Shown one piece after another: positions 31,901-39,925 of a stretch of DNA of 64,000 bases. Both the position numbers and the translations under genes were made by a program. The notes below the pieces were generated by a model, which was given only the letters and a program-made list of their open reading frames with translations, made no database searches and was not told the DNA's origin. The stretch comes from Rhodanobacter sp. FW104-R8 (GTDB lineage Bacteria > Pseudomonadota > Gammaproteobacteria > Xanthomonadales > Rhodanobacteraceae). The stretch is taken from positions 62,001-126,000 of the forward strand of contig NZ_LVJR01000028.1 of NCBI RefSeq assembly GCF_001617365.1, given 5' to 3'. The first letter of the stretch is position 1. Every line of letters begins with the position of its first letter.

Positions 31901-32150
31901 CCCGATCCTGATGACCTCGTTCGCCTTCATCATGGGCGTAGTGCCGCTGGTCACCTCGCACGGCGCCGGCGCCGAGATGCGCCACGCGATGGGCGTGGCG
32001 GTGTTCGCCGGCATGCTCGGCGTGACCATCTTCGGGCTGATCTATACGCCGCTGTTCTACGTCGTCATTCGCGCCCTGGTCGAGCGCCGCGAGGCGCGCG
32101 CGGCCGAACGCGCCGCCGCGCATGCGCTGCCGGCGCTGGAGAACCACTGA
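28959..32150 (+). CDS. RND multidrug efflux pump (HAE1 family, MexF-like)
   Basis: 1063 residues, full length for an HAE1 pump. Twelve membrane helices (TM1 at 10-30; the proton-relay Asp pair in GIVVDDAIVVVENVE in TM4 and the Lys in LACKNAILIVEF in TM10). Two large periplasmic loops with porter and docking domains. The pump uses the proton gradient to extrude drugs or solvents. The sequence character (FFVDRPIMAAVLSL, FTNSTNSGIVFV) favours the MexF/AcrB lineage. Stop overlaps the next start (ATGA). Confidence 0.93.
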   Translation: MKNIAQFFVDRPIMAAVLSLLFVITGSIAVFQLPISEYPEVVPPTVVVRAAYPGANPKVIAETVATPLEEQINGVEGMLYTSSQATSDGAMTLTVTFALGTNLDTAQVDVQNRVAQALPKLPEEVQRLGVTTQKSSPDLTMVVHLTSPDQRYDMLYLSNYARLHVKDVLGRLDGVGDVQIFGAGEYSMRVWLDPRKLAQRSLTTGDVVNAIREQNVQVAAGALNAPPGPGNSAFQLNINTRGRLVSENDFRNIIVRTDANGGVTHLGDVAKVDLGSNNYALRSLLDNKPAVALPIFARPGSNAIQISDEVRATMAQLKQEFPQGVDYQIVYDPTVFVRGSIEAVAHTLLEAILLVVLVVILFLQTWRASIIPLVAVPVSLIGTFAVMHLAGFSLNALSLFGLVLAIGIVVDDAIVVVENVERHIELGQTPREATRKAMHEVTGPIVATALVLCAVFIPTAFVSGLTGQFYRQFALTIAISTVISAFNSLTLSPALAAVLLKGHDAPKDRLTRGIDRAFGWLFRPFNKLFHRGSERYVGGVKRIVGKGKLALVMYAGLIALTWFGFSHVPTGFVPGQDKQYLVAFAQLPDAASLDRSEDVIQRMGAIALKQPGVEHAVAFPGLSINGFTNSTNSGIVFVTLKPFEERRDASLSAGAIAGALNQKFAAIQDAYIAVFPPPPVMGLGTIGGFRMQIEDRGDRGFAELYQQTQNLIAASRKDPALAGLFSSFQISVPQVDADVDREKAKTVGVNLGDVYQTMQAYLGSLYVNDFNRFGRTYQVNVSADPAFRHSPQDILALKTRNAQGQMVPLGSFVTVQQGAGPDRVQHYNGYATAEINGGPAPGFSSGQAQAAMEKLAKDNLPNGISFEWTELTYQQILAGNTAILVFPLCVLLVFLVLSSLYESWSLPLAVILIVPMVLLSAIAGVWLSGGDNNIFTQIGLIVLVGLACKNAILIVEFARERQHEGMSRHEAVLEAAHLRLRPILMTSFAFIMGVVPLVTSHGAGAEMRHAMGVAVFAGMLGVTIFGLIYTPLFYVVIRALVERREARAAERAAAHALPALENH

Positions 32151-33709
32151 TGAAAATTTTCACTCGCAAGAACGCGCTGGATGCTCTTGACCGTCATTCC
32201 TGCGAAAGCAGGAATCCAGTGACTGCAATGGGTGGTGGCGAAAGTCGCTGGGTCCCAGCTTTCGCTGGGATGACGATAGTGGTTCGAGGCGCACTGCTGA
32301 CCGCCGCCCTCGCACTGGCCGGCTGCGCCAGCGTCGGCCCGAACTACCACGAAGCGAAACCCGCCGCACCGCAATTGCAGGGACTGGACGCGGCGCAGGA
32401 GAACAACGCGCAGTTCCAGGCCGAATGGTGGAAGCAGTTCAACGACCCCACGCTGGACGCGCTGATCCGGCGCACCGCGGCGAACAACCTGGACCTGCGC
32501 ATCGCGGTGGCGCGGCTGCATCAAGCGCGCGCGCTGCTCAGCGGCGCAAAGTCCGATCAGCTGCCGACCATCGATACCGACGTCAACTACACCCGCAGCC
32601 GCGGCCAGCAGCCCGGTTTCGGTACCCAGCGCCGGACGGTGACGACCTACCAGGCCGGCTTCGACGCATCATGGGAACTGGACCTGTTCGGCGGCGTGCG
32701 CCGTTCGGTGGAAGCGGCCGGCGCCGATCTCGACGCCAGCGAGGCGGCGCTGCACGACGCCCAGGTCAGCCTGCTGGCCGAGGTCGCACGCAACTATTTC
32801 GAACTGCGCGGCAGTCAGCTGCGGCTGGACATCGCCCGTCGCGACATCGACAACCAGCAGCAGACCGTGCACCTCACCGAGGTGCGCCAGCAGCTCGGCT
32901 CCGGCGCGGAGCAGGACGTGGCCAGCGCCAAGGCCCGCCTCGCCGCGGTGCAGGCGCAGCTGCCGTTGCTGCAGACCCAGGCCAGCGCCAGCGAATACCG
33001 TCTCGCCGTGCTGCTGGGCGAACGTCCCGGCGAACTCGACGTCGACGTGTCGCCGAAGAGCTTCACCCCGATCGCGGCGAACCTGCCGATCGGCGACGCC
33101 GGCGACGTGCTGTCGCGCCGACCCGATGTGCGCATTGCCGAACGCGAATACGCCGCCGCCACCGCGCGCATCGGCGTGGCCAAGGCGGACTTCTTCCCGC
33201 ACATCATGCTGGGCGGCTTCCTCGGTTTCCTGTCGGGGCGCAGCAACGATTTCGGCAGCCCGGCGACGCGCGCGTGGTCGCTGGCGCCGAGCATCAGCTG
33301 GGCCGGCCTCAACGTGCAGCGCGTGCGCGCCAACCTGCACGCCAGCGAGGCGCGCACCGATGCGGCGCAGGCGAACTACCAGCGCAGCGTGCTGGAAGCG
33401 ATCGAGGACATCGACAACGCGGTCACCGGGTTCAACCAGCAGCGCATCCGCGTCGACCATTTGATCGAGCAGGGCGCGCAGAGCAAGCGCGCCGCCGACC
33501 TGGCCCGCATCCGCTACCAGGAAGGCGCCACCGGTTTCCTCGAACTGCTGGACGCCGAGCGCACCCAGCTTGTCGCCGAGGATGACCTGGCCCAGGCCGA
33601 GGCGGCCATCAACACCCGCGCCGTGGCCTTGTACAAGGCGCTCGGCGGCGGCTGGCAGGCCTGCGGCGACGAGCGCTGCAGCGCGGTGGCCCGGGCCGAC
33701 GCGCCATGA
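32150..33709 (+). CDS. RND outer-membrane efflux lipoprotein with a repeat inside its signal region
   Basis: OprM/NodT family. The frame opens at ATG 32150, overlapping the pump stop (519 residues). A lipoprotein signal peptide (MTIVVRGALLTAALALAGC, lipobox LAGC) begins only at an in-frame ATG at 32270, giving 479 residues. The 120 bases between are mostly a palindromic repeat (32191-32275) read in frame as HSCESRNP...RWVPAFAGMT. The mature protein shows the duplicated TolC-type core (EWWKQFNDPTLDALI, SWELDLFGG, RRPDVRIAEREYAAA, DAERTQLVAEDDLAQAEA). It forms the exit channel of the pump. Which start is used is uncertain. Confidence 0.88.
   Translation: MKIFTRKNALDALDRHSCESRNPVTAMGGGESRWVPAFAGMTIVVRGALLTAALALAGCASVGPNYHEAKPAAPQLQGLDAAQENNAQFQAEWWKQFNDPTLDALIRRTAANNLDLRIAVARLHQARALLSGAKSDQLPTIDTDVNYTRSRGQQPGFGTQRRTVTTYQAGFDASWELDLFGGVRRSVEAAGADLDASEAALHDAQVSLLAEVARNYFELRGSQLRLDIARRDIDNQQQTVHLTEVRQQLGSGAEQDVASAKARLAAVQAQLPLLQTQASASEYRLAVLLGERPGELDVDVSPKSFTPIAANLPIGDAGDVLSRRPDVRIAEREYAAATARIGVAKADFFPHIMLGGFLGFLSGRSNDFGSPATRAWSLAPSISWAGLNVQRVRANLHASEARTDAAQANYQRSVLEAIEDIDNAVTGFNQQRIRVDHLIEQGAQSKRAADLARIRYQEGATGFLELLDAERTQLVAEDDLAQAEAAINTRAVALYKALGGGWQACGDERCSAVARADAP
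32191..32275. repeat. Palindromic repeat pair inside the efflux lipoprotein reading frame
   Basis: Left unit CCGTCATTCCTGCGAAAGCA continues into GGAATCCAGTG (32191-32221). The right unit, in inverted orientation, is a diverged form with TCCCAGC-TTTC-GCTGGGATGACG (to 32275). The left unit shares CGTCATTCCTGCGAA and GCAGGAATC with the units around the GIY-YIG gene. The right end provides the ATG used by the lipoprotein signal peptide. Confidence 0.85.
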
Positions 33710-39394: not shown

Positions 39395-39485
39395 GAAGTG
39401 CGATTCCTGCCTTCGCAGGAATGACGGTAAAAGATGCGACTTGCGCCCACCTTCGTCATTCCTGCGAAGGCAGGAATCGCACTTC
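39395..39485. repeat. Palindromic repeat pair, left of the GIY-YIG gene
   Basis: Unit A (39395-39427, GAAGTGCGATTCCTGCCTTC then GCAGGAATGACGG) and unit B (39454-39485) are exact inverted copies over 32 bases, separated by 26 bases. Each unit has its own hairpin ATTCCTGC-CTTC-GCAGGAAT. Unit B ends 5 bases from the GIY-YIG stop codon. A REP/BIME-like arrangement. Confidence 0.9.
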
Positions 39486-39490
39486 AACGG

Positions 39491-39784
39491 CTACAGAATA
39501 GTCGGATACAAGTCCCGCCACCCGGCATTGCCCTCGTCGATCAAGCGCATCTTCCAGTCGCGCTTCCACCGCTTGAGCATCTTCTCGCGCAGGATCGCCG
39601 ACTCCATCGTCGGGTGAAGCTCGTACCAGACCAGCGTGTGCACACCGTAGCGGTTGGTGTAGCCCTCCACCACGTCGTTCTTGTGCTGCCAGATGCGCTT
39701 GATCAGATCGCTGGTGACGCCGATATAGAGAACACCGTTCTTCTTGCTCGCCAGCATGTAGACGCAAGGTTGTCGCCTGTCCAT
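39491..39784 (-). CDS. GIY-YIG nuclease superfamily protein (UPF0213/YhbQ-like)
   Basis: 97 residues, a stand-alone GIY-YIG domain. VYMLASKKNGVLYIGVT holds the two strands of the signature, Arg in DLIKRIWQHK is the expected catalytic Arg, and Glu in AILREKMLKRWKRDWK the metal-binding Glu. A conserved tail NAGWRDLYP follows. Such proteins cut or bind DNA, but most are uncharacterised. It is bracketed on both sides by inverted pairs of the same palindromic repeat (39395-39485 and 39807-39905), like a gene inside its own repeat cassette. Confidence 0.9.
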   Translation of the reverse strand: MDRRQPCVYMLASKKNGVLYIGVTSDLIKRIWQHKNDVVEGYTNRYGVHTLVWYELHPTMESAILREKMLKRWKRDWKMRLIDEGNAGWRDLYPTIL

Positions 39785-39806
39785 AGCGTTTTCTCCAGTG
39801 TTGTAA

Positions 39807-39905
39807 TGCGATTCCTGCTTTCGCAGGAATGACGGCGGTGTAGGTGATTCACGGGTATGCCACTCTCCTTTTTCGTCATTCCTGCGAAAGCAGGAATCGC
39901 ACTTC
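39807..39905. repeat. Palindromic repeat pair, right of the GIY-YIG gene
   Basis: Unit C (39807-39835, TGCGATTCCTGCTTTCGCAG then GAATGACGG) and unit D (39874-39905) are inverted copies with a TTTC loop, separated by 38 bases. A further half-unit GCGCAGGAATGAC lies at 39906-39918. Units differ from A/B by one loop base. Unit C begins 23 bases upstream of the GIY-YIG start. Confidence 0.9.
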
Positions 39906-39925
39906 GCGCAGGAATGACATGGGGC

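Follow-up and report, generated by a model that had tools for sequence, protein, structure and literature searches.

A Single-Domain GIY-YIG Nuclease Gene Bounded by CGTC-REPs: A Candidate Short Mobile Unit in Rhodanobacter and Its Relatives in Other Bacteria

Introduction

In REPIN/RAYT systems, the gene that lies among the repeats encodes an HUH tyrosine transposase, and the REPs carry a GTAG tag. A different class, the CGTC-tagged REPs, was surveyed in 2013 and occurs in five phyla, mostly as pairs with their tags on the outside (PMC3733652, Di Nocera, De Gregorio and Rocco 2013). Its members are described there as having an 8–9-bp stem that begins with AT, a 4–5-nt loop, and a tail that is CCA-like in most, but not all, of them. 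In the same survey, where transposase genes were monitored, CGTC-REPs are said to “apparently lack a dedicated transposase”, their mobiliser, if any, is left open, and the term GIY-YIG has 0 occurrences.

A literature search that reached a minority of subscription journals and preprints found no paper linking GIY-YIG genes to REPs. Closer in enzyme type are the Ssn proteins, reportedly small, site-specific, single-stranded GIY-YIG nucleases. The work of Chenal et al. in Nature Communications in 2025 reportedly covers cleavage and transformation, and is said to place hundreds of copies of the cognate repeat in Neisseria and to include homologues with cognate sequences of their own.

The locus considered here lies in a 64,000-nt stretch of the genome of Rhodanobacter sp. 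FW104-R8, referred to below as the window.

The Gene and Its Repeats

The features of the window that are relevant to this analysis are as follows.

39491–39784, minus strand: single-domain GIY-YIG nuclease gene, 97 aa (PF01541)
39454–39485, plus strand: inner left CGTC-REP with the tail CGCACTTC, its tag directed away from the gene
39807–39834, minus strand: inner right CGTC-REP, its tag directed away from the gene
39395–39426, minus strand: outer left CGTC-REP, identical to the inner left REP but in inverted orientation
39874–39905, plus strand: outer right CGTC-REP
39907–39918, minus strand: remnant of one more REP (CGCAGGAATGAC)
39454–39834, no strand: putative mobile unit REP-gene-REP, 381 bp from tag to tag
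32192–32276, no strand: tag-outward REP pair of another subtype (CCAG tail), at the start of an outer-membrane efflux lipoprotein gene

The original prediction placed the gene between two inverted pairs of a palindrome, and both pairs proved to be exact. The left pair (39395–39426/39454–39485) is 100% complementary over the 32 nt that had been claimed for it, and the right pair (39807–39834/39874–39901) is 100% complementary over 28 nt. A gap of five bases lies between the stop codon and the left pair, and one of 22 bases between the start codon and the right pair. The REP core beside the gene consists of CGTC, ATTCCTGC, a 4-nt loop and GCAGGAAT, after which comes all or part of CGCACTTC. Since the order on the plus strand is REP minus, REP plus, gene, REP minus, REP plus, both REPs that adjoin the gene have their CGTC tag pointing away from it.

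A strict finder for such repeats ([CT]GTCAT, a stem of at least 8 bp, and a loop of 3–6 nt) gave five hits in the window, namely the four by the gene and one at 32192, compared with a mean of 0.0 in 20 block-shuffled windows. A loose finder has a background, with 18 hits in the window versus 5.9 in shuffles.

The gene was recognized by a profile search (PF01541, 62.9 bits against a cut-off of 22.6), and a ribosome-binding-like GGAG can be read at 39793–39796. Its 97-aa product contains the GIY-YIG domain only and had no match among NCBIfam families. AlphaFold2 predicted a confident single domain (pLDDT 93.5, pTM 0.85). A profile match to 1zg2 of UPF0213 was obtained at E 1.6e-6, and the top Foldseek chains were 1zg2, 1ywl, Slx1-Slx4 and UvrC, none of them at E 0.001 or better. 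The fold is one that the window protein has in common with UPF0213 (PDB 1zg2, 1ywl), Slx1 and the N-terminal domain of UvrC, although its subfamily is separate from all three in sequence. Fifteen columns are invariant in an alignment of 64 sequences (the window protein plus 63 of 78 stop-free relatives), including Y9, Y20, G22, R30, H34, E67 and N86, and this conservation suggests that the active site has been kept. Y9, Y20, R30, H34, E67 and N86 of the window protein presumably correspond to residues of known GIY-YIG active sites.

The original prediction proposed a genome-wide count of the repeat. The 25-mer CGTCATTCCTGCGNANGCAGGAATC has six exact copies in the 3.72-Mb genome, four of them at this locus, and 16 copies if up to three mismatches are allowed; a reversed control pattern has 0 copies in the whole genome. 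Five PF01541 genes are present. The second, on contig 119, encodes a protein 61% identical to that of the window and also lies between CGTC repeats, which end in CCAG. Of the remaining three loci, two have no CGTC repeat and the third has one, located away from the gene.

A third, diverged pair had been noted in the efflux lipoprotein gene. The pair is real (32192–32276), but its ends are CCAG/CTGG instead of CGCACTTC, and it therefore belongs to the other repeat subtype of the genome. In the lipoprotein frame at 32150–32300, this pair encodes ...RHSCESRNPVTAMGGGESRWVPAFAGMT... if translation begins at 32150; with a later GTG start, the pair would lie upstream and be untranslated.

Association of Gene and Repeat across Bacteria

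The association of this gene with the repeat is widespread, as was predicted by analogy with REP/RAYT systems, and it recurs in three samples that were chosen by protein alone. The largest comprises the best 80 relatives from 84,980 species genomes; further relatives exist. A strict CGTC-REP occurs within 200 bp of the gene in 63 of these 80 (upstream in 49, downstream in 48, on both sides in 34), with five loci whose flank is shorter than 150 bp retained in the denominator. The strict finder misses longer-loop forms and the repeat form of one genus discussed below (g244), and three of the 17 loci without a strict hit (L105, L128, L148) do have a longer-loop repeat. According to record titles, the 80 relatives belong to Beta-, Gamma-, Alpha- and Deltaproteobacteria, Nitrospirae, Planctomycetes, Chloroflexi groups and others, and many are metagenome bins. 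In a class-level sample, taken outside the window's own genome, a repeat was found within ~400 bp in 17/28 loci. In a phylum-wide sample, the gene was found in 75 of 299 genomes, and the loose finder detected a repeat in 20/28 loci (the window's own and L029 left out).

Flanking above chance had been set as a test, and the repeats are not equally frequent beside unrelated genes. Among control open reading frames of the same 80 loci, which include neighbours that share the gene's own repeats, 83/699 have a repeat within 200 bp on either side and 8/699 have one on both sides (p 3e-36 and p 9e-30, respectively, against 63/80 and 34/80). Repeat density falls steeply with distance from the gene, from 8.5 per kb within 50 bp to 3.7 (50–100 bp), 2.8 (100–150 bp), 1.2 (150–200 bp) and, beyond 1 kb, 0.04–0.08. 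Relative to intergenic DNA more than 500 bp away in the same loci (0.237 repeats per kb), repeats within 50 bp of the gene are ~36-fold denser. The link belongs to this subfamily rather than to GIY-YIG genes at large, since other GIY-YIG loci (UvrC and the like) in 12 class genomes with at least 10 repeats and no relative had a strict repeat within ~700 bp in only 1/24 cases.

The outward orientation is the commonest around the gene. Where the nearest repeat lies within 60 bp, its tag points outward in 29/39 loci upstream and 27/38 downstream; of 25 loci with a near repeat on both sides, 18 are outward, five inward and two mixed.

The association extends to plasmid records and to variant repeats. 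Of 32 matches in plasmid records, 11 were examined, and the loose finder detected a repeat within 300 bp in 10/11, with both sides flanked in 7/11. Flank repeats were present in 15/36 loci on viral contigs. Phage records gave no match. The repeats beside the gene on Rhizobium and Shinella plasmids have 9-bp stems and 5-nt loops, those of Novosphingobium aromaticivorans have the form CGTCGCCCCGTG..., and those of Sinorhizobium meliloti are tagged CCTC.

Several individual loci may be recorded here. On plasmid AZO_p3 of Azospirillum lipoferum (L267, 1351–1969), a GIY-YIG gene with CGTC-REPs on both sides sits between sufB and sufC, which otherwise run in one direction. On plasmid p1 of Planktothrix agardhii (L272), a relative lies between an MmeI-like restriction enzyme gene and drmA of DISARM, and no CGTC-REPs were detected at this locus with the loose finder. 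In two genomes, a single contig has two relatives in close proximity (G387:C147:10798-12452 and G489:C23:9475-10614). Four loci (L105, L115, L128, L148) have CGTC repeats with an 8-bp stem and a 9-nt loop, a length outside those given for the families of 2013 (PMC3733652).

Co-Occurrence and Subtype Matching

The original prediction also implied that genomes lacking the gene should lack the repeats, and this was only partly borne out. In the class sample of 143 genomes, repeats are enriched where the gene is present: at least one 4-nt-loop repeat occurs in 23/29 genomes with the gene versus 33/114 without it (p 1e-6), and at least 10 repeats occur in 12/29 versus 12/114 (p 3e-4). On the other hand, 12 of the 24 class genomes with at least 10 repeats have no relative at E 1e-10, so that in half of the repeat-rich genomes the repeats may persist on their own, depend on another factor, or be left over after loss of the gene.

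A contrast between subtypes is seen in the window's own genus, where 45 genomes were compared. Thirteen carry the window-type gene (12 identified by protein at ≥85% identity, and G144, whose locus is cut by a contig end, by part of the gene's DNA), and a second type, 52–66% identical, is present in 17. GC-tail repeats have a median of 19 (6–43) in the 13 genomes with the window-type gene and 0 (0–18) in the 32 without it, while CCA-tail repeats have a median of 27 in the 17 genomes with the second gene type and 3 in the other 28. The crossed comparisons were not significant across the 45 genomes (p 0.56 and 1.0). Among the 11 genomes with the second gene type only, seven have 0 GC-tail repeats and four have 3, 9, 12 and 18. 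Each gene subtype follows the repeat subtype that belongs to it and not that of its counterpart. While this raw contrast is strong, the kinship-corrected one is only suggestive: on a one-gene tree of 30 genomes it was not significant (median p 0.125), with the six independent pairs showing the same direction in 4.4 cases on average, the opposite direction in 0, and no difference in 1.6.

Enzyme and repeat types also vary together. At the window locus, the stems differ across species yet stay paired (e.g., CCTGC...GCAGG and CCGGC...GCCGG). On a protein tree of 167 rows, repeat class requires 10 changes compared with a shuffled mean of 26.9, and 0/200 shuffles were as low; this tree has few columns and many open forks, 35 of its rows are unlabelled, its class labels were edited by hand, and near-copies by themselves can cluster a label. 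The rows include 29/36 viral loci, 28 loci of the class sample (without L021 and L037), 19/29 relatives and 11/32 plasmid matches. Repeat class D (4 changes) showed no clustering on this tree. Seven loci (L098, L101, L107, L147, L150, L157, L018) have CGTC repeats with an AGGGA-type loop, and their genes group together to one side of a protein-tree branch that has a support of 90.

Mobility of the Unit

That the unit has spread is supported by dispersed copies and by presence and absence at common sites. In 30 relatives compared at the window site, without base-exact boundaries, 12 are occupied (intergenic length of 536–606 bp) and 14 are empty (62–163 bp); in the other four, one locus is cut by a contig end and the neighbouring gene was not found in three. 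Presence of the gene at this site changes seven times on the 30-genome tree, whether by gain or by loss. Several of the empty sites hold a REP (G155, G159, G162, G149 and G184), and the palindrome in G184 has a tag at either end.

Copies that are dispersed and have inverted repeats at their ends, as in insertion sequences, were found in genome G095 and in genus g244, and not for the window unit itself. G095 possesses five copies on five contigs. Three are 94–96% identical over 356–406 bp, with similarity that stops near the tag on the downstream side; the remaining two resemble each other (97% alike) and have a different form of the repeat. In genus g244, which belongs to the same phylum and another class, genomes G269 and G382 have four copies each. 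The finders did not detect their repeats, which begin CGTCATTCTAGGG and contain a long inner portion. Pairwise identity among the eight copies is 74.9–90.8% over 423–743 bp, with the exception of one longer alignment. At the left tag (eight copies), the inside is 92–100% alike over 60 bp, whereas the outside is 59% alike over the first 10 bp and 26–45% thereafter; for the six copies aligned at the right tag, the final 20 bp of the unit are 87–100% alike, compared with 63% and then 37–50% outside. Two of these copies (L320 and L327) occupy one site, and two others (L324 and L325) have partly common flanks, so that fewer than eight independent places are represented. Because similarity between copies ends at outward CGTC tags, the g244 unit looks like an insertion sequence. 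The 381-bp extent of the putative unit in the window is derived from such unit ends in other genomes, together with the occupied and empty sites of relatives.

Sites that differ in content were also found in g244. Of 30 loci beside glmS (a gene named by our reading of the sequence), five have the gene (one partial), four have end pieces only, and 21 have no element, one of these 21 being too short to judge. A common left flank (...TTCCCTT) is followed in G269 by a unit of 511 bp and in G518 and G382 by palindromes of 54 and 53 bp, respectively, that are CGTC-tagged at both ends; the right flanks of this site match weakly. In seven g244 loci (L410, L412, L416, L422, L426, L424, L427), a unit or a solo palindrome lies just past the glmS 3′ end. 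This end of glmS is also a favoured place of Tn7.

Examination of 83 REP pairs revealed no clear target-site duplication (mean direct match of 0.45 bp versus 0.28 in shuffles, sd 0.08). Some mobile elements make none. Complementarity of the DNA outside the pairs was only marginally higher than in shuffles (5.72 versus 5.41 of 12, with 4/500 shuffles as high) and comes largely from the base beside the tag (a pyrimidine in 72/83 on the left, a purine in 77/83 on the right). These 83 unique tag-outward pairs compare with 86 tag-inward and 28 tandem ones, both of which were not made unique, and as the loci are biased towards the gene, the counts are no proof that outward pairs prevail. At five sites where G157 has REP pairs, G184 has none, and divergence of the intergenic DNA prevents exact boundaries from being drawn. 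A run of five tandem CGTC-REPs in one orientation, 78–79 bp from start to start, was seen at G172:C1:1193256-1193597.

Proposed Mechanism and Alternatives

We consider it fairly probable that the gene and its two outward CGTC-REPs (39454–39834) are a short mobile unit, equivalent to a RAYT gene and its REPs but with a GIY-YIG enzyme. The unit encodes no known type of transposase or recombinase. Binding and cleavage of the REP, the strand used and the route of copying are inferred. The nuclease would recognize the REP hairpin in single-stranded DNA, as might arise on the lagging strand, during repair or upon DNA uptake, and would nick it close to the tag CGTC. Replication or repair by the host could then copy the unit elsewhere, frequently next to or within a REP that is already present. 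Gene-less REP pairs would be non-autonomous derivatives, and loss of the middle of a unit would leave a double-tagged palindrome. Such a scar could arise by slippage alone as well, since each REP is palindromic and its left arm is a direct repeat present at both unit ends. As half of the repeat-rich class genomes are without the gene, the repeats outlive it or do not need it.

What is known of the enzymes bears on this scheme. GIY-YIG enzymes hydrolyse DNA. Slx1 is structure-selective for branched DNA, in agreement with the titles of its PDB entries, and by analogy recognition of a hairpin by an enzyme of the window type is plausible. On the other side, GIY-YIG enzymes are not known to form a covalent intermediate, and they could therefore not rejoin DNA in the manner of HUH transposases, which counts against the scheme. 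So do the 17/80 relatives with no strict repeat inside 200 bp, the non-significant kinship-corrected co-occurrence and the lack of a clear target-site duplication.

A broader claim, which we advance only tentatively, is that a lone GIY-YIG nuclease defines a new kind of insertion sequence, moving ~0.4–0.5 kb bounded by CGTC-REPs, and that it is the missing source of CGTC-REPs across bacterial phyla, with REP pairs as its non-autonomous form.

Among other explanations, the one that fares best is a homing-like parasite: CGTC-REPs would spread by other means, and the nuclease gene would enter REP sites cut by its own enzyme, through repair templated by a filled copy. Single-domain enzymes of the GIY-YIG type are well known among homing nucleases, and both the empty window sites that have a REP and the repeat-rich genomes without the gene agree with this account. 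However, if the repeats came first, they would not be expected to be plentiful in genomes with their own gene subtype and all but missing from the others, and copies of the unit bring their own repeats to places with unmatched flanks, so that we regard this explanation as unlikely.

Less probable still is a domesticated single-strand nuclease with little present mobility, which would cut incoming or exposed single-stranded DNA at repeats that are kept as its sites, and would thereby tune natural transformation or genome exchange. The model for such tuning is reportedly Ssn of Neisseria, and a relative from N. gonorrhoeae (L103), 63% identical in its best segment, lies among CGTC repeats. The fifteen invariant columns, which suggest a kept active site, also agree with this reading. 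Dispersed near-identical units and the seven presence changes at the window site favour mobility as well, and the two readings are compatible.

That the repeats are passive neighbours of an ordinary host nuclease gene, as terminators or as elements that land beside any gene, is already disfavoured and very improbable: REPs do lie mostly between genes (PMC3733652), and 83/699 control frames have one within 200 bp, but neither accounts for the ~36-fold excess next to this gene, its absence from other GIY-YIG genes, or the subtype matching in the genus.

Comparison with Known Systems

The mobile-unit reading was prompted by a likeness to REP/RAYT, which stands insofar as a small gene lies between inverted REPs. 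In REPIN/RAYT and in the window alike, a small enzyme gene is found inside tag-outward inverted REPs and gene-less REP pairs occur elsewhere in the genome, and in both kinds of system enzyme type and repeat type vary together. The enzymes differ, the window gene being of the GIY-YIG rather than the HUH type, as do the tags, CGTC in place of GTAG. If the nuclease does mobilise CGTC-REPs, a REP/RAYT-like arrangement arose with an unrelated enzyme chemistry.

The closer comparison is with the orphan class of CGTC-REPs described in the 2013 survey (PMC3733652). The window copies agree with it in their CGTC tag, stem of 8 bp and loop of 4 nt; a CCA-like tail is lacking in the four copies by the gene, whose tail is CGCA, and the pair at 32192 has CCAG. 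The tags-outside arrangement reported there as predominant for gene-less pairs is the same as that of the REPs around the gene here. Hosts named in the survey recur as matches to the gene, namely Neisseria, Azospirillum lipoferum, Novosphingobium aromaticivorans and Sinorhizobium meliloti. The nuclease family may thus be what spreads a repeat class whose mover was reported missing. A protein of 97 residues with a matched hairpin also constitutes a very small system for testing.

The window family, with its small GIY-YIG protein and cognate repeats around and beyond the gene, has the features reported for Ssn, and we take it to match these single-strand nucleases. The window gene is probably a member of the Ssn family, and recognition of cognate repeats by Ssn-type enzymes has probably been published already. 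Should the mobile-unit reading be true, the Ssn nucleases would be tied to a mobile-element origin. To this picture the present comparison adds that the repeats are CGTC-REPs, controls for the specificity of the link, a contrast between two subtypes within a single genus, and units whose ends coincide with the tags.
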